Of a DNA stretch of 64,000 nt, positions 6,824 to 29,599 are shown piece after piece. The DNA comes from Mesorhizobium sp. 131-2-1 (GTDB taxonomy: Bacteria; Pseudomonadota; Alphaproteobacteria; Rhizobiales; Rhizobiaceae): positions 4,092,501 to 4,156,500 of the forward strand of contig NZ_AP023247.1 of NCBI RefSeq assembly GCF_016756535.1, in the 5' to 3' direction. The notes beneath the pieces are model-generated. The model had not been told where the DNA came from. It saw only the letters and a list, made by a program, of their open reading frames with translations, and ran no database searches. Made by a program: the position numbers and the translations under genes. Each line of letters opens with the position of its first letter. Positions within the stretch are counted from its first letter, which is position 1.

Positions 6824-6969
6824 GCCAGGCTTCCAGCCGCTCCCAGCCAGAGTGATCAAAAGCTGCGATTGAAACGCAGCGCGGGGTTGACTATTTTCCG
6901 GCGGCGGCTACAAGGCAGCGCTCGCGGCGCTTGAGCCGCCCGCTTCGCACGGTTATCGACCGCGCCTGC

Positions 6970-7043
6970 TGGGGAATAGGTTAACGGTAGACCCACGGAC
7001 TCTGACTCCGTTAGTCCTGGTTCGAATCCAGGTTCCCCAGCCA
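6970..7043 (+). tRNA. tRNA-Gln (CTG anticodon)
   Basis: A full cloverleaf can be drawn: acceptor arms TGGGGAA and TTCCCCA, anticodon stem ACGGA/TCCGT around loop CTCTGAC with anticodon CTG at 7002-7004, and T-arm CTGG-TTCGAAT-CCAG. The discriminator base is G and the CCA end is encoded at 7041-7043. The accessory-looking minus-strand block begins about 150 bp beyond its 3' end, a typical position for integration, but no repeated copy of the tRNA 3' end was found by eye in the window. Confidence 0.97.
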
Positions 7044-7192
7044 AACTGGATGCCCTGTGGACAGACGTGGTTCGTCGAGCGTCTTCCGAACTTGCGGCCA
7101 CCGCTGTTTCTGCAAGCAAGTCAAACGGTTGTCTGAAGGTGGTAGGCTCCAATTTGCGGTGCCAGGACGCAAACCTCAGAGTAGGATAGATT

Positions 7193-8029
7193 TTATTCCC
7201 TGCTCCACACACTAGCGATAGCTTTTCTCACGACAGTGGCGCCCAGAGGCACGATGCCTTCGATGTCCTCGATGGTCCGAAGAATGGTGTAATGATCGAT
7301 TCTTTCGGCATAACGGCCGGGCTTAATACGGGCGCCATAGAGCACCGTGAAAATCTGATTCTCGATTCCGTAGTCGTCTTCGTCAAAGGTGATGATCAGT
7401 AGGCTGCTGTGCTTTCGCGACCAGTTAGCATAATTGCCTAGATGGGCCTTCAGCCAAGCATCGGCCTGCCGAATTGTACCGTCATGCATGTCATTGCGAA
7501 GGTTAGGGATGACGAAGCTTACGGCTGGCAGAGTTGCATAATCGCGCGGAAATGCAGCCAATGGTTTCTCTACTCGCTTGGCGGCGGCGAACGACTCCCA
7601 CGGATTGTGCTTCCGCGGGGATCCATCCTCAACATACCCGACGAAAGCCTTGCCGGCAGCACGCAGGCGTACAGCAAGGTTAGGCCATTCAATGTCGTGG
7701 ATACCGTCGTCGCGTACGCCATGCGTTGAGCCACTGAACAGTGCTAGGTAATTAGGCTGGCTGGGATGACCTACGGCATGCGAGTTGTCGAACACTGCAC
7801 CGTTCCTTGCCAGCCTCTGCAAATATGGAGCGGCCGATGTTTGAAGAATCTGTTCAAAGGAATGATTCTCCATAATCACAACGACGATGTGCGCGTATTT
7901 CGGAGGTTCGTTGGCGAATGCGATGCTGGTCGCCCTAAAAGCGATGAAGACGGTCAGAAAAAGCAGGCCGGAGAAAAATTGCAGTAAAGCGCATCGTCGT
8001 TGGTGCACAACAATTCTCCGCAAATTCAT
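7193..8029 (-). CDS. Secreted phosphoesterase-family protein
   Basis: This 278-residue protein is of the phosphoesterase/phospholipase C superfamily type (alkaline-phosphatase fold, acid phosphatase-like subgroup). The first conserved block VVVIMENHSFEQI, the block GHPSQPNYLALFSGSTHG and the metal-binding stretch LLIITFDEDDY are present. An N-terminal hydrophobic segment (residues 13-35) predicts export or membrane anchoring. The ATG at 8027-8029 is preceded by GGAGG at a 9-nt spacing. It is the last gene of a minus-strand series starting with luxR, 153 bp after the inhibitor gene. The substrate (phospholipid or phosphomonoester) cannot be told. Confidence 0.85.
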   Translation of the reverse strand: MNLRRIVVHQRRCALLQFFSGLLFLTVFIAFRATSIAFANEPPKYAHIVVVIMENHSFEQILQTSAAPYLQRLARNGAVFDNSHAVGHPSQPNYLALFSGSTHGVRDDGIHDIEWPNLAVRLRAAGKAFVGYVEDGSPRKHNPWESFAAAKRVEKPLAAFPRDYATLPAVSFVIPNLRNDMHDGTIRQADAWLKAHLGNYANWSRKHSSLLIITFDEDDYGIENQIFTVLYGARIKPGRYAERIDHYTILRTIEDIEGIVPLGATVVRKAIASVWSRE

Positions 8030-8182
8030 CCCGTAGAGCCTCCAAAGGAAGGGGCAAGATAGTCACGCCCTCTGCTACAACACCGCGCGGGCCAATCGGG
8101 CAGTTTCCCAGTTCCCCACACAGGCGCCCACGACGGCTCCAGGCCCTGAGAAAGCGACAGCTAGTCCCCCGGTCCGTGCCAA

Positions 8183-8506
8183 CTATCCACAACGTGCACT
8201 CAATATTCGACCCTCGCCATCAACTTGGACGATGATCCTGCCACCGGGATCATAGTTGGCCGGCGCAGGGTCTTTCCCCACGCGCAACACCAGTATCCTT
8301 CGCCCCCCACTCTCATGGGCCAGGGTTTCGAGTAACTCAGCCACCTCCCGCCCCTCCAGTTTTCTACGGTATGTCTCATCGTTGCAAATGACATCAAGCG
8401 TAGGGGGCTTCTCTTGTGACGCGCAAAGCCCACCTGCCAAAACCAGCGAAAGGAGTGCTAGGGCGCACAGCCGCGGGCGGCATTTCCAGTGGTCTGACAC
8501 AACCAA
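8183..8506 (-). CDS. Secreted I78-type serine protease inhibitor
   Basis: This 107-residue secreted protein has a signal-peptide-like hydrophobic stretch at about residues 12-30. The remainder follows the I78 inhibitor pattern: a Cys near the mature start (DVICNDE), a GxxxxELLETLA helix, a strand RILVLRVG, then DPGGRIIVQVDGEGRI and the terminal Cys-Gly of the family. I78 proteins inhibit chymotrypsin- and subtilisin-like proteases. The TTG start at 8504-8506 lies inside the 3' end of the protease gene with AAAGG 7 nt upstream, so it is probably translationally coupled to the protease. Assignment is from motif memory, without a profile search. Confidence 0.72.
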   Translation of the reverse strand: MVVSDHWKCRPRLCALALLSLVLAGGLCASQEKPPTLDVICNDETYRRKLEGREVAELLETLAHESGGRRILVLRVGKDPAPANYDPGGRIIVQVDGEGRILSARCG

Positions 8507-10278
8507 TTTCGTACCTTTGGTAAGGTGGTATCCTGCATTACCATCCGCGAAGCATTAATACATGCGTTCGCGGACTGCTGCGCGGTCGTGCCGCTGCCAG
8601 GATCGCCGAGAAAGTTATAGGACTGTACACCTTGAATTAGTCTGGGGCGATCTTCCCCGGCAATGTCCACGTTCTTGCATCCTCTATATCGGCCCGCGAA
8701 AATCGGCCCACCAGAGTCTCCTTGGCAGAATCCACTCTTCAGTTCACCCGCCACGGGCACGAAACTCAATTGGCCTGCCTCTTGTTTCACCGGCGGCGGC
8801 CAAGTCACCAGAAACTGCCCGATAATACCGCCTCTGATGTTTGAAAAGCCATAACCGGCGGAAGTAACTTCTGATGAGAATTGCTTTTGCGTCGCCAGCA
8901 CCGCTGGTTGAGCAGCTGGGCCAGGATAGGGTGCGTTAAGCTCTAGTAGTGCGAAATCATTCTGGAAACTCGATGCAGGACCGCCGTAGTCTCTCTTGAT
9001 AACTACCCTGCTGGCTCGTCTGAGCCTATCTTGTGGGGAAAGAAGCTTCGCGTTACTTGCTTCAACTACAACGTCCACGAATAGGTCATTTTGATCTCCA
9101 AACCTCCAGGACAAATCTCTCCGGTCAGTGCCAGTGGCGTCCTTCACCCCGTACTCGCCCAGGAAACAATGGGCCGCTGTTAAGACCCACTGATTTGAAA
9201 GAAGCGTGCCACTGCACAGTTCAGCAGGCGCACCATTGGGCTTCTCTACGACAATCTTCAGTACCTCCGGAAACTGATTGAAGGAAAACCGTTCGCATCG
9301 TTCACCGTCTTTCTCCCTTCCACCAGCGCAGAACGGAGACTTCTTAGGCAGATCTTTGAATGCTATATCGCAATCCCTAAGTCCACTATCCAAGTCCTGG
9401 TAGTTTAGTACAGGAACTCCAGACTGCAATTCCTTTGGTATTGCAGGTTGCGGTGCAGCCGCGGCAATAACAGAGGCAACCGTCGGGATATATGTTGCCC
9501 CCCGCAAAATAAGCCCCCCGCTGCTCGCGTCTACGAAGTTGCCATCGCTTCCGATGCCAGGAATACTCTGACTTGGAATTGCTTGCTGCTGACGAATGGT
9601 CGCAATCGTCGCGGCTGCGCCATTTGCCAATCCAGAAGAGCCGAGGCTGGAACCACTGCCAGGAACCATCTGAAAGCTGCCTGGCAGCCCCCCGCCGACT
9701 CCGGTGCCGGGAACCACCTGAAATGTACCGGGCGAGCCTCCGCCCACTCCGAAACCGGGAACGACCTGGAAGACCCCCCCGCCGACCCCGGTGCCGGGAA
9801 TCACCTGAAAGGTACCGGGCGAGCCTCCGCCCACTCCGAAACCGGGAACGACCTGGAAGCCCCCCCCGCCGACCCCGGTGCCGGGAATCACCTGAAAGGT
9901 ACCGGGCGAGCCTCCACCCACTCCGAAACCGGGAATGACCTGGAAGACCCCTCCCTCGACCGCGTTGCCGGGAACGACTCGATAAAAGCCGGACGCCGAT
10001 GCGCCGACTCCCATCCCAGGGAAGACTTGGTCCGGAGACCTAAATGTAGAAGCCGATGCGCCTACGCCCACCCCCGGGGGGAAGACTTGGTCCGCAAACC
10101 AAGATGTGCCGTTGTCTTCCAGTCCCGGCTCCGGCACTGAGGTTCCGGGCATCTCATCTACAGTTTTTGGGATCGAAGCGGGTCGTTCTTGCGGCACCTC
10201 CTGGCACTGGACTTGCTGCGCGACTGCGAGTGCCGCGAGCAACGTTGCCGACATGAGGAATTTCCGCCGTCTAGTCAT
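8458..10278 (-). CDS. Secreted trypsin-like serine protease with GVGGG tandem repeats
   Basis: This 606-residue exported protease has an N-terminal signal peptide (to about residue 25). Residues 60-200 hold a low-complexity region built from FQVxPGxGVGGG units. The S1 peptidase domain fills roughly residues 310-600. The triad is intact: His in VLTAAHCF, Asp in NDFALLEL and Ser in CQGDSGGPIF. Several cysteines could form the usual disulfides. The ATG at 10276-10278 has GGGAGG upstream. Its 3' end overlaps the I78 inhibitor gene by 49 bp. The repeat region may be a spacer, surface-binding or self-assembly segment; that is inference. The repeat DNA looks prone to copy-number change. Confidence 0.9.
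   Translation of the reverse strand: MTRRRKFLMSATLLAALAVAQQVQCQEVPQERPASIPKTVDEMPGTSVPEPGLEDNGTSWFADQVFPPGVGVGASASTFRSPDQVFPGMGVGASASGFYRVVPGNAVEGGVFQVIPGFGVGGGSPGTFQVIPGTGVGGGGFQVVPGFGVGGGSPGTFQVIPGTGVGGGVFQVVPGFGVGGGSPGTFQVVPGTGVGGGLPGSFQMVPGSGSSLGSSGLANGAAATIATIRQQQAIPSQSIPGIGSDGNFVDASSGGLILRGATYIPTVASVIAAAAPQPAIPKELQSGVPVLNYQDLDSGLRDCDIAFKDLPKKSPFCAGGREKDGERCERFSFNQFPEVLKIVVEKPNGAPAELCSGTLLSNQWVLTAAHCFLGEYGVKDATGTDRRDLSWRFGDQNDLFVDVVVEASNAKLLSPQDRLRRASRVVIKRDYGGPASSFQNDFALLELNAPYPGPAAQPAVLATQKQFSSEVTSAGYGFSNIRGGIIGQFLVTWPPPVKQEAGQLSFVPVAGELKSGFCQGDSGGPIFAGRYRGCKNVDIAGEDRPRLIQGVQSYNFLGDPGSGTTAQQSANACINASRMVMQDTTLPKVRNWLCQTTGNAARGCAP
9700..9960 (-). repeat. 87-bp tandem repeat inside the protease gene
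   Basis: About three units with a period of 87 bp (29 codons) are visible from the recurrence of TACCGGGC at 9726, 9813 and 9900. Each unit encodes two half-repeats of the form FQV-I/V-PG-T/F-GVGGG separated by SPGT. Units differ by only a few bases, so the array expanded recently or is being homogenised. Diverged half-units flank it on both sides. Confidence 0.9.
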
Positions 10279-10312
10279 TCGCGCCTCCCTGTGATTTAGC
10301 TATTGACGCACC

Positions 10313-10630
10313 TCACTGTCGGACGAAACTACCGACAACTCTCCGTCCATCAACAATTACAACCATACGTCCATGGGGAGAGGCCGGAGATGGCGCCTTA
10401 CTTACTTTGTCGCATATAGCATGAGCTACTTTCGGTACTGCCGCAGGCACGCTGGGAACGAGTTCAAGAATAGTCTCAGCAACCGGGAGCCAACCGCACA
10501 CGCCCAATGCAGCTTGCTGGACGTCAGCAACTGTTGGCTTTACGTTGGTCGAAGCTTCTGTTGCTGGTGAGGTATGGGTACAGGCCGCTAGGAAAAACAC
10601 GCAAATTATAGTAGAAATGTACTTTGTCAT
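10313..10630 (-). CDS. Small putative lipoprotein, unknown function
   Basis: This 105-residue protein has a lipoprotein signal (hydrophobic stretch, then lipobox FLAAC with Cys at about residue 17). The mature part has two cysteines, in GVCGWLP and HAICDKV, that could form a disulfide, and ends in a basic strand. I do not recognise the family. The ATG at 10628-10630 has GGAG upstream. It lies 34 bp before the protease gene and 19 bp after the lysozyme-like gene, so it is very probably part of the same transcript. Confidence 0.7.
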   Translation of the reverse strand: MTKYISTIICVFFLAACTHTSPATEASTNVKPTVADVQQAALGVCGWLPVAETILELVPSVPAAVPKVAHAICDKVSKAPSPASPHGRMVVIVDGRRVVGSFVRQ

Positions 10631-10649
10631 TTCGTTCTCCGTCGGTAAT

Positions 10650-11642
10650 CTAGACGCTTTCGTCTTTCATTTTAATCTGCACTGTTGGGTCAATCTGAGA
10701 GATCGCATTGATGAGGGCGACCAAGCCGGCCTGCTTTGAGCGATACGAACGATCAAAAACATGGTCGCGTGGATAGCCACCTCCACTGTAGCGATTGGTG
10801 AAGGACCATAGGTAAGGGGTGTTGATGTTATAGGGACGGTATCCAAAGCCGTTGTACGCCTCGAGACCGAAACACATGCGGGGAAAATTCCACTCCGGAA
10901 CGAGGCCAGAAATCCGTTTGAGAGCGTCTTTGGCACTTTCTTGCCAGAGTTCGCGCGGATCATCGACGCCAGGGGTGGGCCAAGGCTTAGGCGGACGATT
11001 GCTGGGGACGTGAACCGTTCGAAGCAACAATGGGTCTCCGTTGTGCAGATGGCCCATAAAATTTAAGTTTGCTTCTCGATAATGAAGAGCACCGACTACG
11101 TACCAGGGTACATCGGTAACTTTTTCAACCGCCTGGTATCGAGGTTTTGCACGCGTCGATGCAATGAAGCGCGCCGCCCTCGAAAGAAGAGGTCTTTTTC
11201 GTATATCGATATGAAAATCCGGGTCAGTATATAGTCGGACATAATTATCGCGCACAGATTTGCTATATACTACTGCGGCCGCGGGGGCTGGAAGCAATGG
11301 ATCATATTGGATACCGTCGTGTTCGTCCCGACTGATATCGCTAAGAAGCAGACCCGCGCGACGTGCAACTAGCGCCGCGTTATCATCGGTCGATGCCAGT
11401 TCCAAAGCATTGAGTACTAAATCGGCGATATATATAGTATCCCTCGACCCAGTACTTGCCATAGCAGCCGGCGCCAAATTGAATTGCTGAGCCTGTGCCA
11501 CGACACGGTTGAATTCTTCTGCGTAGCGCGAAGCGCTCTCGGCCGACCTAGCCTCAGACTGCGTAGAAAAGCTCGCGTTGCAGAATGAAGCAGCCCCTAT
11601 GGTAAATACCCCTCTTAGGGCTGCACGGCGCGAAATCTTCAT
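10650..11642 (-). CDS. Exported lysozyme-like protein
   Basis: This 330-residue protein begins with a twin-arginine-like signal (SRRAALRG followed by a hydrophobic run). The core from about residue 165 contains PWYVVGALHYREANLNF, HLHNGDPL, WQESAKDAL, LEAYNGFGY and SPYLWSF-type (here TPYLWSFTNRY) blocks. From memory these match lysozyme-fold proteins of phages and cyanobacteria, with the Glu of HYREA as the candidate catalytic acid. The role would be peptidoglycan cleavage outside the cytosol; this is inferred. The ATG at 11640-11642 with GGGGGTG upstream is preferred to a TTG four codons earlier. It starts 63 bp after luxI with no evident terminator between them. Confidence 0.68.
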   Translation of the reverse strand: MKISRRAALRGVFTIGAASFCNASFSTQSEARSAESASRYAEEFNRVVAQAQQFNLAPAAMASTGSRDTIYIADLVLNALELASTDDNAALVARRAGLLLSDISRDEHDGIQYDPLLPAPAAAVVYSKSVRDNYVRLYTDPDFHIDIRKRPLLSRAARFIASTRAKPRYQAVEKVTDVPWYVVGALHYREANLNFMGHLHNGDPLLLRTVHVPSNRPPKPWPTPGVDDPRELWQESAKDALKRISGLVPEWNFPRMCFGLEAYNGFGYRPYNINTPYLWSFTNRYSGGGYPRDHVFDRSYRSKQAGLVALINAISQIDPTVQIKMKDESV

Positions 11643-11705
11643 TTTCACCCCCAAATGCGAAATTACGCAAAGGTCAGGACGTTCGTCTTCTTGATTGTAA
11701 TGATA

Positions 11706-12392
11706 CTACTGCTCACACTTCTCTTTACTTCGCGTGAACTGCGCTGACTCCGCTGTGAGTTTCTTCTCGATAAATGACGTCTGCATCCCCCGCCTCACCA
11801 GCAAGGAATGCTCAATCCCCAAGATCTTCCTGACACTCGCCAGCGCCGCCTCGTTCACGTCGATGTAGGCGACGATGTACCATTCGCCGTTCTCTTCGCG
11901 CGCCATGCCGAGCGGCTCAGCACGCCATTTCAGCGCGCCGTGGTGGGGCATGAAGTAGGTTTCCTGGACGCCGCCGACCGCGCTCAGGCCCTCATCGAGC
12001 GCGTACTCCATCACCGCGCAGCACAGTTGCGTCAGCGTGCCGCGCAAGCCGGTTGCGCGTTTGTCGGGAACGACGAAGGTGCGGGTCCATTCGGCCCAGT
12101 CGGGGCGTCTCGGGACGCCCGATCTCTCGCACATGTGAGGAAAAACCTCCGAGACCATGTGCGGCTCGCTCGTTGGGATCAATCGAGCCGAGGTCACGAC
12201 GCGATCGTCTTCGATACCGAGCAGATAGGTCGCCGCGTCTGTATCGAACTGGTCTCGTTCGCGACCGTCCGGGCTCGGAGGGCGCCAATGTTTTTGGTGC
12301 ACGAAGAAGTCGTGCCGCCGGCGCAAGAACTCGTCGAATTCGTTTTCGTAGAGATGCCTGTTCTGCGCGTTGACGACATGAGCCGTAATCAT
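11706..12392 (-). CDS. Acyl-homoserine-lactone synthase (LuxI family)
   Basis: It makes an N-acyl-homoserine lactone signal from SAM and an acyl carrier. The conserved N-terminal core residues are all visible: Arg, Phe and Trp in RRRHDFFVHQKHW, the two Asp in DQFDTDAATYLL, Arg in TSARLIPT, Phe of SEVFPH, and Glu and Arg of WAEWTRTF. The acyl chain cannot be predicted. The ATG at 12390-12392 (228 residues) gives the usual N-terminus. An earlier in-frame ATG at 12449 would run through the palindrome region. Its ribosome site is buried in a hairpin (12401-12420). The cognate luxR lies immediately upstream on the same strand. Confidence 0.95.
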   Translation of the reverse strand: MITAHVVNAQNRHLYENEFDEFLRRRHDFFVHQKHWRPPSPDGRERDQFDTDAATYLLGIEDDRVVTSARLIPTSEPHMVSEVFPHMCERSGVPRRPDWAEWTRTFVVPDKRATGLRGTLTQLCCAVMEYALDEGLSAVGGVQETYFMPHHGALKWRAEPLGMAREENGEWYIVAYIDVNEAALASVRKILGIEHSLLVRRGMQTSFIEKKLTAESAQFTRSKEKCEQ

Positions 12393-12400
12393 GGCGCGAT

Positions 12401-12420
12401 CCCCCGATCGTTCTCGGGGG
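12401..12420 (-). promoter_or_regulatory. Hairpin covering the luxI ribosome binding site
   Basis: On the minus strand CCCCCGA, a 6-nt loop GAACGA and TCGGGGG form a perfect 7-bp GC-rich stem. The 3' arm contains the GGGGGA that serves as ribosome binding site 8 nt before the luxI ATG. Folding would hide it, so luxI translation may be restrained. Only the pairing is seen; regulation is inferred. Confidence 0.6.
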
Positions 12421-12449
12421 ATAGTTGCAGCCGCCCTAAAGTACGTCAC

Positions 12450-12465
12450 CTGTCCGATCGGACAG
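12450..12465. promoter_or_regulatory. Perfect 16-bp palindrome between luxR and luxI (lux-box candidate)
   Basis: CTGTCCGATCGGACAG is a perfect dyad of the length and CTG...CAG form of LuxR-type boxes. It lies in the 82-bp spacer, 58-73 bp upstream of the luxI ATG, the standard place for autoinduction by the LuxR encoded just upstream. Confidence 0.7.
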
Positions 12466-12474
12466 TTGACGCGG

Positions 12475-13197
12475 TTATGGGTGGATTAGTCGCCTGCGCA
12501 CCGCCTCGACGACGGCTTGCGTGGTCGTCGCAACGCCGAAGGCCTCGCGGGCTCGTGTCGCGTGCCATTTGACGGTGCGTTCAGTCAGGCCGAGAATTTG
12601 TGACGTTTCCGACGAGGTCTTGCCAGCGGCCGCCCAGAGCAGCACTTCTTTCTCCCGGTCGGTCAACGGGCCTTCATCACCTTCATCGTCATGCGAAAGA
12701 GCCTGGATCGTCATGCCGGCGTAAACGGCCATGGTAACCAGTTGCACCTGCTGGCGCGGCGACAGCTTGCAGGACTTCGCGGAAGAGGCAAACGAAAGCA
12801 CGGATTGCCAGTGATGGACGCTTAACATTGGCACGGCAAAGCCGCTGCAGATGCCGAACTCCGTCGCCTCGCCTGCAACGCGCCGGGAGCCTTCCGTGTC
12901 GGACCACTTCGCCGGAACTTCCGCCCAGAGGAATGGCTTCAGGGTTTTTGCGGAGTAGATGCAGACGCCGTCCACCGCGGCGTGCTCGGCTTCGACATAG
13001 CGCTCGAACCAGCCTTTAGGCCAACCGTTCAATTCCACCATAGGTGCGAGCTTCTGCCCACCCAAGGGGACTCCGCTCAAGATAAGATGCTCAAATCCAA
13101 GGTTTTTTACAGTCTCAAGAAGGTCGCTTAAAAGCGGCCCGGTTGCCGTGTGCTTCCTGCAGCGTTCGACAAAGTCGAATACATCTGAATCGATCAT
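12475..13197 (-). CDS. LuxR-family quorum-sensing regulator
   Basis: This AHL-responsive transcription factor has 240 residues. The N-terminal autoinducer domain shows the family Trp and Tyr in WFERYVEAEHA, the Asp in AAVDGVC, the Trp in FLWAEV and the Gly in FGICSGFAVP. Gly replaces the usual Pro after the Asp. The C-terminal LuxR helix-turn-helix (LTDREKEVLLWAAAGKTSSE...TVKWH) is complete. The ATG at 13195-13197 has GGGGG at an 8-nt spacing like luxI; two ATGs further upstream lack a good site. It is transcribed toward luxI and probably acts at the palindrome between them. A dyad at 13273-13289 upstream may control luxR itself. Confidence 0.93.
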   Translation of the reverse strand: MIDSDVFDFVERCRKHTATGPLLSDLLETVKNLGFEHLILSGVPLGGQKLAPMVELNGWPKGWFERYVEAEHAAVDGVCIYSAKTLKPFLWAEVPAKWSDTEGSRRVAGEATEFGICSGFAVPMLSVHHWQSVLSFASSAKSCKLSPRQQVQLVTMAVYAGMTIQALSHDDEGDEGPLTDREKEVLLWAAAGKTSSETSQILGLTERTVKWHATRAREAFGVATTTQAVVEAVRRRLIHP

Positions 13198-13665
13198 GGC
13201 AGAGACCCCCATCCCCACACGACGCATTTATAGCTTATTTTAGGGAAGTCGAATACTCAAATTCCGGCGCAATCGGCACAAAGTGCCGACTGGGCGGTAC
13301 TTTTGACAAAGTCTTTGCGATCCCGGGAAACCTTCGACTGCCGCCATGGTCGACTGACGCCTTTTTGCGAGGGAACGCGCCTCGGACTGCACCTCAATTT
13401 GTCGCCTGCACCCTGCTAGTCTGGGCGATCACGCGAGATACCGACGAAGCAGGAGCCTAAGCTGGTTCCGGTTTCAGAGCTTTGGCTAGGCTTCTACGAA
13501 TGCGCAGCTGAGCCGACTACTACCGCCGCTTACATTAGCAATCAACGATATGTTAACGGCTATAATGCAGCCTTTCCGTATCGGGCGACGGGAACCAACC
13601 CTCCCCCATCGACGATCCGGCATCTTATGTGTGCCGCGACGTTCGACCGATGCGGAGTAAAACGC
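13198..13665. other. Intergenic region upstream of luxR
   Basis: I see no convincing gene in these 468 bp between luxR and the small plus-strand gene. The notable element is a perfect dyad TCGGCACAAAGTGCCGA at 13273-13289, 76-92 bp upstream of the luxR ATG, a candidate operator. The sequence is less GC-rich than the neighbouring core genes. Confidence 0.5.
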
Positions 13666-13968
13666 ATGAGTGTCGAAACCGCACTGGCGCAGCTGCTGCG
13701 CATGATTCACCGGCGGGCTCTGAATTTGGCGACGTTGCCAGACGATGAGAGAGATCCGCACTACGATCACATCCGCCTGTCATGTTGCGGGGCCGCCGAG
13801 CAGATTGGCCAAAGCCCCGACAAGGCAGCCATCACGGCAAACAGCGTGGTCGAATTTACCCGCGCAATGGTCGGGATCATCGAAACAGGCCGCAGCCCAG
13901 GCGCAGAGCGAAGCGCCAATCGGCCTCGGGTTGAGAGTTCGGCAGTTTGGCCAGGGCGACCACATTAG
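13666..13968 (+). CDS. Small hypothetical protein
   Basis: This 100-residue soluble protein starts MSVETALAQLLRMIHRRA and has an alpha-helical, charged composition with no signal peptide or membrane segment. The ATG is preceded by CGGAG at an 8-nt spacing, which supports a real start inside a longer open frame beginning at 13627. I do not recognise a family. It converges on the GGDEF-EAL gene. The last 20 residues are low-complexity and may be less constrained. Confidence 0.5.
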   Translation: MSVETALAQLLRMIHRRALNLATLPDDERDPHYDHIRLSCCGAAEQIGQSPDKAAITANSVVEFTRAMVGIIETGRSPGAERSANRPRVESSAVWPGRPH

Positions 13969-14050
13969 GCTTGGTCGCCATCGCTTTCATATCGCCGGCC
14001 TTGAAAGGTCGACGCTTCACGGAAGCATGGAACCGGTCCCCAGGCTGCGA

Positions 14051-19981: not shown

Positions 19982-20017
19982 TGGGTTGCCCTTGCTTGAT
20001 AGGAAAGCGCCAGGGCA

Positions 20018-20171
20018 CCCCCCTCTGTCCTGCCGGACATCTCCCCCTCAAGGGGGGAGATTGGCAGCTTCGGGCTCGTCGCCCGTTCTGCAACGTTGGC
20101 GATTGGCGAAGGCCGCAGTGAAGGCGGATCTCCCCCCTTGAGGGGGAGATGGCCGGCAGGCCAGAGGGGGG
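20018..20171. repeat. Palindromic repeat, family A, between nirB and nirD
   Basis: A full family A copy of about 154 bp fills most of the 211-bp nirB-nirD spacer. The outer arms and both ATCTCCCCC/GGGGGAGAT hairpins are present. Being inside an operon it will be transcribed and should fold strongly, so it may influence mRNA processing or the NirB to NirD ratio (inference). Confidence 0.92.
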
Positions 20172-20192
20172 TGCCTCGCACCAACGTCTCCA

Positions 20193-27991: not shown

Positions 27992-28044
27992 CCAAAGATT
28001 GTTCATTAGCGCTCGCGCACGCATAATTATTGTGCAATGCACAA
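27992..28044. promoter_or_regulatory. Conserved blocks upstream of the nrt sigma-54 promoter
   Basis: CAAAGATTGTTCA (near 27992) and TTGTGCAATGCACAA (28030-28044, a dyad) lie about 81 and 119 bp upstream of the promoter. Similar blocks CAAAGATTAGTCA and TTGTGCAGTGC lie at the same distances from the narK promoter (near 24497 and 24536). The distance fits enhancer sites, perhaps for NtrC; the exact NtrC consensus is not met. Confidence 0.45.
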
Positions 28045-28192
28045 GATTGGCGCGAAAATAATCAGGCGCGTAAAATCGGCTCTCGACACAGCGATTTTGG
28101 CAGGTTGGGGACCTGTTGGCGGCCAAGGTTTCAGCGGTCGTCTGGATGGATCGTCGCGAACCATCGCGATTGGCCGAAACCCTCGCAACTTC

Positions 28193-28246
28193 GTCATCCC
28201 AGGGCGAAGCAGGAGCGAAACTCCGTCGCGGAGACCCTGGGATCCG
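28193..28246. repeat. Rhizobial palindromic repeat with ATCCCAGGG/CCCTGGGAT ends
   Basis: Perfect 9-bp inverted ends (28196-28204 and 28235-28243) flank a GC-rich core resembling GCGAAGCAGGAGCGAAACTC. From memory this is a widespread intergenic repeat in Mesorhizobium and relatives. It is single-copy in this window and abuts the 3' end of the methyltransferase gene. Confidence 0.6.
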
Positions 28247-28258
28247 AGCGCAAGAGAG

Positions 28259-29599
28259 TCAGTGGCCGTCGTGATCGGCAACCAAGTTGCAGCGTCCATC
28301 CGTCCCGAAAAACAAACCTCCGCCGGCCCCCTCTTTCCACCAACCATTTCCGGACGCAGAGCGACGCAGACTGACCACGCCGAAACGCCACGCGCTCTTG
28401 TCGCCCTGGTAGGGCTGCAAGGAGAACAAATCTTCGTAGTGCGGCACCGGCCAGGTGTGATCCAGCACATCCCAGTCGCCTATCTTCCCACCAAGCCACA
28501 TATCAAAATGATCTCGAATCTTTGTGGCGGGCGGATTCGGATAGAGGGCAATTAGATGTGCTGTTCCGTCAGGATCGAGCTTGGCAGGCAGCGATTCGAC
28601 AATTTTTCGAAGCAGGTCGGTCCCTTGCAGTCCGCCGCTCCAGAAATTGTCTCCTGGTTGCGCTGCACTGTCAGGAGCGTAAGGAGGATTGGCCAAGAGG
28701 AGATCGCATGTTCCCTCGATTGATTTGAACAAATCGCTTAAAATGAACTGTGCGTTGCTTTTACCGTTAAGCATTGCATTGAACGTTGCAAATTCAACGG
28801 CGCGCGGATTGACGTCAGCACCGATTACCGACGAACAATGATCTGCCGCCAGTATCGCGTGAATACCGGATCCTGTCCCCAAATCGACTGCCCGCCGTCG
28901 TGGACTTCTTTTTACCAAGCCGCCGAGGACAAAGCTCTCTCCCCATAACCACATGACCTGATTGATTGCGGAATTCTTGGCAGCATGGTCCGTTACAATG
29001 TAGCTGCCGTAGCAAGGAAATAGACACACGTTCGCTTGCAGGACTCCGTCCCCACAGTCGGTCAGGAGGCCCATATCAAGCGCTGTATCGACGAACCTCG
29101 ACGTAAGCTGTTTGGCAACGAGGTTCGCGTTGACCTGACGGCCATCAATAAAGAGCGAAATAAGATTGTCGATGGGATCGTTTGCACGAGCGACCCAGTC
29201 GGGTCTCATCGAGGCCCAGAAATTAACCCCTAGGCGAGGAAAAACCCCCAGTCGCTTTGCGCAACTGGCGAGGTCAAAACTGCAACTGCGCAATTCGTTC
29301 ACAAATTGCGTCATTCGTTCAGGTGCCACCGGGACCGGTGCAGCAACTTCGCGACAAATCGTCTGCAGTGTCGAGCTTGCTGGCTGTTCGGATCTGGCTG
29401 GCGGCGCTTCAGCCAAACGACCTGGCGGCGTATCCGCTTGCAGAAGGGCAATTATCTCATCTTTCTGATCGACAAGTGCCGATTTCAATTCCGCGTCGAT
29501 TGCACCCACAGGAGCACTGCATCTAAGCCGGGACCCTTCTACCCACAGGTTCACCTTGCGGCTGCGTAGAATTGTTAGAAGCGTGCTGACGTCCATCAT
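28259..29599 (-). CDS. TubC docking domain fused to an NPPY-type methyltransferase
   Basis: Residues 5-53 (LLTILRSRKVNLWVEGSRLR...ELKSALVDQKDEIIALLQ) match the TubC N-terminal docking domain that links subunits of nonribosomal peptide synthetases. After a Pro/Ala linker (about 55-90), residues 95-220 form an unassigned region. Residues about 235-400 form a Rossmann SAM-dependent methyltransferase with VDLGTGSGIHAILAA (motif I) and LLANPPY (motif IV), as in PrmC/RsmC-type enzymes that methylate N atoms. No NRPS is in the window. The docking domain suggests recruitment to an assembly-line enzyme encoded elsewhere; the substrate is unknown. The ATG at 29597-29599 starts exactly at the docking domain. 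Confidence 0.82.
   Translation of the reverse strand: MMDVSTLLTILRSRKVNLWVEGSRLRCSAPVGAIDAELKSALVDQKDEIIALLQADTPPGRLAEAPPARSEQPASSTLQTICREVAAPVPVAPERMTQFVNELRSCSFDLASCAKRLGVFPRLGVNFWASMRPDWVARANDPIDNLISLFIDGRQVNANLVAKQLTSRFVDTALDMGLLTDCGDGVLQANVCLFPCYGSYIVTDHAAKNSAINQVMWLWGESFVLGGLVKRSPRRRAVDLGTGSGIHAILAADHCSSVIGADVNPRAVEFATFNAMLNGKSNAQFILSDLFKSIEGTCDLLLANPPYAPDSAAQPGDNFWSGGLQGTDLLRKIVESLPAKLDPDGTAHLIALYPNPPATKIRDHFDMWLGGKIGDWDVLDHTWPVPHYEDLFSLQPYQGDKSAWRFGVVSLRRSASGNGWWKEGAGGGLFFGTDGRCNLVADHDGH

Follow-up and report, generated by a model that had tools for sequence, protein, structure and literature searches.

RESULTS

A luxR-luxI pair followed by five genes

The window, that is, the whole 64,000-nucleotide stretch of Mesorhizobium sp. 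131-2-1 that was analysed, contains a luxR-luxI pair followed by five further genes, hereafter the cargo (Table 1). The original prediction had described seven genes on one strand and, indeed, all seven ORFs lie on the minus strand. The predicted spacing was also reproduced, with gaps of 82, 63, 19 and 34 bp, one overlap and a gap of 153 bp, taking starts at 13197 for luxR, 12392 for luxI and 11642 for the lysozyme-like gene; the luxR ORF is open to 13227, the conserved start being 13197. As proposed, the GC content of the block is below that of its surroundings (cargo 0.55 and luxRI 0.60 vs 0.657 and 0.655 in the flanks), and the low GC extends beyond luxR to about 16.5 kb. The tRNA expected at the start of the block does lie nearby, but on the 3' side of the operon. 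No terminator was found on the minus strand between luxI and the next gene, in agreement with the prediction, by a scan that performed at chance level (7 found vs 8.0 expected).

Table 1. Features of the luxRI locus and its surroundings in the window
Feature	Position	Strand	Basis
luxR (AHL receptor/regulator, constant head)	12475..13197	-	PF03472 and PF00196 over cut-off; a relative lies directly 5' of luxI in most of the copies analysed
lux-box palindrome CTGTCCGATCGGACAG before luxI	12450..12465		arms kept among distinct copies
luxI (AHL synthase, CoA-type clade)	11706..12392	-	PF00765; nearest structures 5w8a, 6wn0
luxI variable tail	11706 to about 11771	-	edge of conservation
Cargo 1, candidate lysozyme-superfamily protein, twin-arginine-like start	10650..11642	-	homologues; twin-arginine reading by eye
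Cargo 2, small predicted lipoprotein	10313..10630	-	lipobox by eye
Cargo 3, trypsin-family protease, repetitive N-terminal part	8458..10278	-	PF00089
Cargo 4, I78-like small protein, predicted exported	8183..8506	-	PF11720 sub-threshold, E 0.029
Cargo 5, PF04185 phosphoesterase	7193..8029	-	Pfam; 74% identical relative in G027 (L052) cassette
tRNA-Gln(CTG), edge of islet	6970..7043	+	tRNA-Gln on 3' side of operon
Islet missing from relative G103 at same tRNA	7048..14048		comparison with G103

The proposed gene identities stood for luxR, luxI, the trypsin and the phosphoesterase, all of which exceeded curated Pfam cut-offs. The trypsin domain was clear (E 1.4e-16, 61.4 bits vs a cut-off of 20.6), the triad motifs TAAHC, NDFALL and GDSGGP (His, Asp, Ser) were present by eye, and the gene is single copy in its genome. 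The phosphoesterase matched PF04185 with an E of 1.2e-40. The lysozyme-like protein and the lipoprotein had no Pfam match. Of the candidates scored for the former, 749 proved homologous, and many of these bear the name "lysozyme family protein"; for the latter, three candidates were scored and none was a homologue. Cargo 4 stayed below the Inhibitor_I78 threshold (14.9 bits vs a cut-off of 23.6), nor did a general rule of cognate inhibitors emerge from the cassettes described below, so the idea of a built-in inhibitor was not upheld. Export signals of the five products were read by eye and with a crude script rather than a trained predictor.

Incidentally, we noticed a second low-GC stretch in the window (28001-29500, 0.53-0.55) and a repeat of ~155 bp at 20016-20176, whose matches in related loci fall at several places and on either strand. 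An ORF antisense to the tRNA-Gln (6856-7212, minus strand), with look-alikes in several loci, is probably spurious. A phage origin and a defence system were considered and rejected: PHROGs gave one match at 9e-4, for the phosphoesterase, and one at 0.04, luxI had three distant matches in phage records, and the best PADLOC match was 0.004, to luxR.

The luxR-luxI head and its lux box

The window LuxI carries an autoinducer synthase domain (PF00765, 73.3 bits vs a cut-off of 24). Its nearest solved structures were 5w8a (E 4.8e-41) and the 4-coumaroyl-HSL synthase 6wn0 (2.4e-38), which we take to be BjaI and RpaI, respectively, LasI reaching 3.5e-5. This places it in the CoA-type clade of synthases, and it is predicted to use CoA substrates. 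The conserved W, Y, D and W residues of LuxR, presumably those of the pocket, line up with RhlR. The luxI gene is under purifying selection, with a median dN/dS of 0.045 over 119 sampled pairs, and is intact across the tested codons in 33 of 33 copies.

Among 35 distinct copies from the genus (see below), the arms of the lux-box palindrome before luxI were perfect in 29, had one mismatch in 4, and had four or five mismatches in 2 divergent copies. The arms occur at only one other place in the 7.1-Mb genome, with a non-palindromic spacer; a reversed control pattern also occurs at one place. AHL-dependent activation is predicted at this conserved palindrome. At locus L047, one lux box precedes luxI and a second lies directly before a three-gene operon whose second gene encodes a tyrosinase (E 3.6e-34); the first ORF of that operon starts with luxI-like codons, as if cargo had been fused behind a luxI start. 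L048 and L103 share with L047 both the sequence behind luxI and the arrangement of boxes; these are the M. ciceri WSM1271-type loci.

Two further observations concern these regions. L047:5036-13051 is a copper-oxidase locus with three lux-box-like sites (one mismatched), a layout likewise found in L048 and L103, and genes for a tyrosinase, a multicopper oxidase and a plastocyanin-like protein. At L029, L031 and L038, an insertion of ~90-100 bp between luxR and the lux box contains a long GC-rich inverted repeat of the GAGCAGGACG...CGTCCTGCTC type, possibly a luxR terminator or a regulatory element.

The head is conserved in Mesorhizobium, and conservation stops at the end of luxI

We surveyed one genome per species and retained LuxI relatives at E 1e-60 or better. 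Close relatives occurred in 33 of 146 Mesorhizobium genomes, at 41 places including the window's own. Forty copies were analysed, one having run off the fetched stretch, and gave 35 distinct downstream sequences, five copies repeating another; the L105 entry and one of those in L104 refer to a single physical copy. LuxI identity to the window was 87-94% for 32 of the 35 distinct copies and 65-70% for two. A near-full-length luxR lies directly 5' of luxI, except in the WSM1271-type loci (3.5 kb away), in two truncated units and in L053, whose fetched stretch ends before luxR could be covered.

Conservation drops to noise after about codon 226 of luxI, right behind a conserved P-F pair (33 copies). 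Only 16 out of the 1054 ordered pairs could be aligned for more than 100 bp beyond the luxI stop. As a control we took 20 loci of another luxI family within Mesorhizobium, in which all 380 ordered pairs aligned over more than 300 bp beyond the stop, at a comparable median identity (82% vs 84% for the close family). Since several luxI tails end in a common "...VA," part of this edge may reflect relaxed constraint. On the other side, alignment extends 5' of luxR for only 38 ordered pairs out of 762, drawn from 30 copies after three had been set aside; the pair is therefore set in varied surroundings on both sides.

The particular seven-gene set and order proved private to its own genome. Among 119 genomes of the genus, the lysozyme-like gene was found above about 42% identity only in its own; weaker relatives occur in G020 (nearly full length, 37%), G080 (36%, partial) and G082 (42%, partial), none of which has the close luxI family. 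Looking for the same gene order elsewhere, as had been suggested, recovered the luxRI pair with varying cargo. A gene order restricted to this strain had been named in advance as a refutation; judged in that way, the set fails and the luxRI pair passes. Outside the genus, no clear enzyme operon was seen by eye behind the ~40% LuxI relatives of Microvirga, and ~42% relatives on Agrobacterium and Allorhizobium plasmids adjoin trb genes. Our claim of a variable cassette is limited to Mesorhizobium.

Co-directional enzyme genes behind luxI

Cargo ORFs were taken from plain ORF walks, as a codon-usage gene caller misses low-GC cargo, including the lysozyme-like and trypsin genes of the window. One walk missed the window lipoprotein and I78-like ORFs, and genes of L033, L046 and L047 were taken from another walk. 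The first ORF of at least 100 codons behind luxI was co-directional in 32 of 35 cases (binomial p 2e-7 under independence, which does not hold), and in two of the three exceptions a co-directional ORF of 95 codons comes first. Some first ORFs overlap luxI by 4, 11 or 25 bp.

We ran Pfam on 58 chosen cargo proteins singly, plus the window, and on a pool of all 86 co-directional ORFs that were at least 150 codons long and lay within 5 kb. A peptidase, peptidoglycan hydrolase, lipase or oxidase was recognised in at least 18 of the 33 cassettes, and in 16 of them a match exceeded a curated cut-off. No enzyme was recognised in ~15 of 33. Proteases were trypsins (window, L030, L040, L100), subtilases (L030, L036, L096, L097, L100, L101, L104), an astacin (L040), a caspase (L097) and an M48 peptidase with a weak Hint match (L032, marginal). 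Other hydrolases were an amidase with YkuD (L034), GH19 (L035, and L049 and L050, both sub-threshold but at least 65% identical to L035), a patatin (L043) and a DUF900 hydrolase (L052); PF04185 occurs in the window and L052. Oxidases comprised LodA (L104), tyrosinases (L047 and the second unit of L104), a multicopper oxidase (L047) and a GMC oxidoreductase (L096). LodA-type oxidases are antibacterials that make hydrogen peroxide; at L104:7887-10480 (G130), a LodA-type quinoprotein oxidase and a flavoprotein lie behind luxRI.

These classes have few relatives in the controls. Relatives of 20 cassette enzymes were found among 26 of the 86 cargo ORFs (the 20 queries included), as against 1 of 94 ORFs 5' of luxR, none of 234 at other loci and none of 36 in the rest of the window. 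The sole control match was a tyrosinase beyond luxR that points away from the pair (L096:11536-13092). In a Pfam tally of the upstream side, in which most single-member families are not displayed, the 25 commonest families include neither trypsins nor subtilases nor peptidoglycan hydrolases, but four members match an esterase/S9 group. Export signals were in borderline excess by the crude script (31/86 cargo vs 27/111, one-sided p 0.05).

Cargo genes also recur in new combinations: L042, L047 and L104 all begin with a protein of 137-150 residues, and next come a lipoprotein in L042, a multicopper oxidase in L047 and, in L104, a 471-residue protein with a tyrosinase further on. Other stretches look different, the L038 cassette beginning, by eye, with an integrase-like gene and some stretches in L049, L051 and L098 resembling biosynthetic or chromosomal genes. 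What held of the original prediction at the level of the genus is a quorum-sensing pair with a conserved lux box before luxI, leading into enzyme genes, many of them lytic; this arrangement recurs.

Displaced units near some heads

G130 has a second unit 7.7 kb on, made up of a luxR cut to residues 221-250, the lux box and a luxI that is intact. It matches the head at 100% identity over 795 bp, a stretch ending in the last luxI codons. The second unit of G066 keeps luxR residues 90-250 (1191 bp, 99.7% identical). The 5' end differs between these two units and the 3' end is the same, and both carry other cargo. Three copies lie within about 20 kb in G027, and G075 has a decayed remnant with an intact lux box. 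The pattern of the G130 and G066 units is the one expected if partial heads serve as homology for cargo exchange, and we infer that such exchange occurs.

Insertion beside a tRNA-Gln gene

The window block is a 7.0-kb insertion between the tRNA-Gln and an EAL gene, which are ~28 bp apart in G103. Because this relative is without the whole stretch at the same tRNA, the block is more than a chance association of genes. G102 has a different insertion of 6.1 kb at the same site. A tRNA-Gln was within the fetched stretch in 8 of the first 20 loci; other luxRI loci lie elsewhere. Incidentally, the half-kilobase beside luxR (13527-14048) is common to G102, next to its different insertion, and is also present in G053 and G108 at another position relative to the EAL gene.

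DISCUSSION

We consider it probable that the window holds one allele of a hypervariable Mesorhizobium locus, headed by quorum-sensing genes and carrying exchangeable enzyme cassettes. The head, made of luxR, the lux box and a CoA-type luxI, would allow an AHL to be made and sensed. At high density, LuxR-AHL would activate the lux-box promoter, and transcription would read through luxI into the co-directional genes: here those of the lysozyme-like protein, lipoprotein, trypsin, I78-like protein and phosphoesterase, in other strains those of subtilases, GH19, amidase, lipases, LodA, tyrosinase or multicopper oxidase. Cassettes would change by recombination with a junction at the last luxI codons, and other cargo could come, through homologous recombination, from tandem units in which luxR is 5'-truncated and the lux box is followed by an intact luxI. 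The products, predicted to be exported, would act in competition or antagonism or in nutrient release, an ecological role that we tentatively assign to the locus. The comparison itself shows the architecture, from the conserved head, variable tail and edge to the near-identical tandem units and the insertion beside tRNA-Gln. Points against our reading are the merely borderline excess of export signals, the ~15 cassettes with no recognised enzyme, the integrase-like gene that opens L038, the variable sequence 5' of luxR, the common "...VA" tails and the cargo stretches resembling biosynthetic or chromosomal genes.

A rather unlikely alternative is that luxRI happens to lie at the border of islets whose turnover has other causes, its neighbours not being its regulon. 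The tRNA-Gln site indeed receives insertions without luxRI, as in G102, the 5' flank of luxR is variable as well, and some cassettes are unlike enzyme operons. Yet co-direction and short overlaps with luxI, recurring enzyme classes with few relatives in the controls, and a lux box fused directly to cargo in the WSM1271-type loci argue against a mere border.

Still less probable is that the cassettes encode contact-dependent antibacterial effectors with immunity genes, served by a type VI or similar machine that quorum sensing only times. Small lipoproteins adjoin some of the patatin, DUF900, amidase, GH19 and lysozyme-like cargo, and these domains resemble known effector classes. However, neither a gene of a secretion machine nor an effector adaptor was seen among the cassette genes, and several products have signal peptides by the crude script, which contact-dependent effectors usually do not have.

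That the pair regulates transfer of a mobile element, like TraRI of Mesorhizobium ICEs, with the enzymes as passengers, is highly improbable: such genes do control ICE transfer in the genus and are often rearranged (PMC8627217 and PMC9973854), and on M. huakuii plasmids two close copies have transposase genes nearby, but in the window luxI is followed by the lysozyme-like gene, the islet ORFs included no recognised transfer gene or integrase, and no att-like repeat of the tRNA end of at least 12 bp was found at the far side of the islet.

The exchangeable-cassette locus can be set against several known systems. Polymorphic toxin systems, e.g., Rhs or CDI, have a constant head, a variable tail and displaced (orphan) cassettes; likewise here, head and tail differ in this way, and extra partial heads with other tails lie nearby in G130 and G066. 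Unlike their head, which is the toxin delivery part, the head here is a signalling pair with its promoter, and the tail is a multi-gene operon in which the small lipoproteins of some cassettes are at most candidate immunity products. Las/Rhl of Pseudomonas aeruginosa are quorum-controlled exoenzyme regulons, and density control of secreted hydrolases is predicted here too, but our enzymes lie directly behind luxI, change as a block, and follow a lux box nearly unique in the genome.

As in other CoA-type LuxR-LuxI systems, receptor and synthase are paired and a lux-box-like palindrome precedes luxI, and our LuxI is nearest to isovaleryl- and coumaroyl-HSL synthases. M. japonicum I1 and I4 sort as CoA-type LuxI, and I1 works with a linked gene for signal synthesis, according to PMC10470506, whereas strain-variable enzyme genes lie behind luxI here. 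TraR-TraI of Mesorhizobium ICEs are luxRI genes of the same genus, also duplicated and rearranged (PMC8627217). The ICE luxRI genes precede fseA, the transfer activator, and control excision (PMC9973854); in the window the lysozyme-like gene lies directly behind luxI instead. Our literature search, with most subscription journals outside its coverage, returned no description of variable cargo behind a luxRI pair.

On the broader proposal of a new architecture, in which a polymorphic locus exchanges cassettes behind a constant head, the quorum-sensing pair, and also has displaced cassettes, a common trigger for exchangeable payloads, we are evenly divided. If true, it would join quorum sensing with cassette-exchanging polymorphic systems, and one signal and promoter with dozens of payloads would be a natural experiment. 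It would raise the questions of whether one strain turns on the exoenzymes of its neighbours, by what route secreted enzymes gained horizontally become subject to density control, and what purpose the Mesorhizobium CoA-type signal serves. The 35 downstream sequences also provide a list of unstudied enzymes, from a genus whose members live in symbiosis with legumes. With luxI, luxR and the lux box so similar from species to species, a single signal would be common to the strains, each of which would hold private exoenzymes or weapons. As the same luxRI pair precedes different genes in most carrier strains, often genes for degrading or oxidising enzymes, our comparison suggests that Mesorhizobium strains share a trigger and hold private, exchangeable tools.
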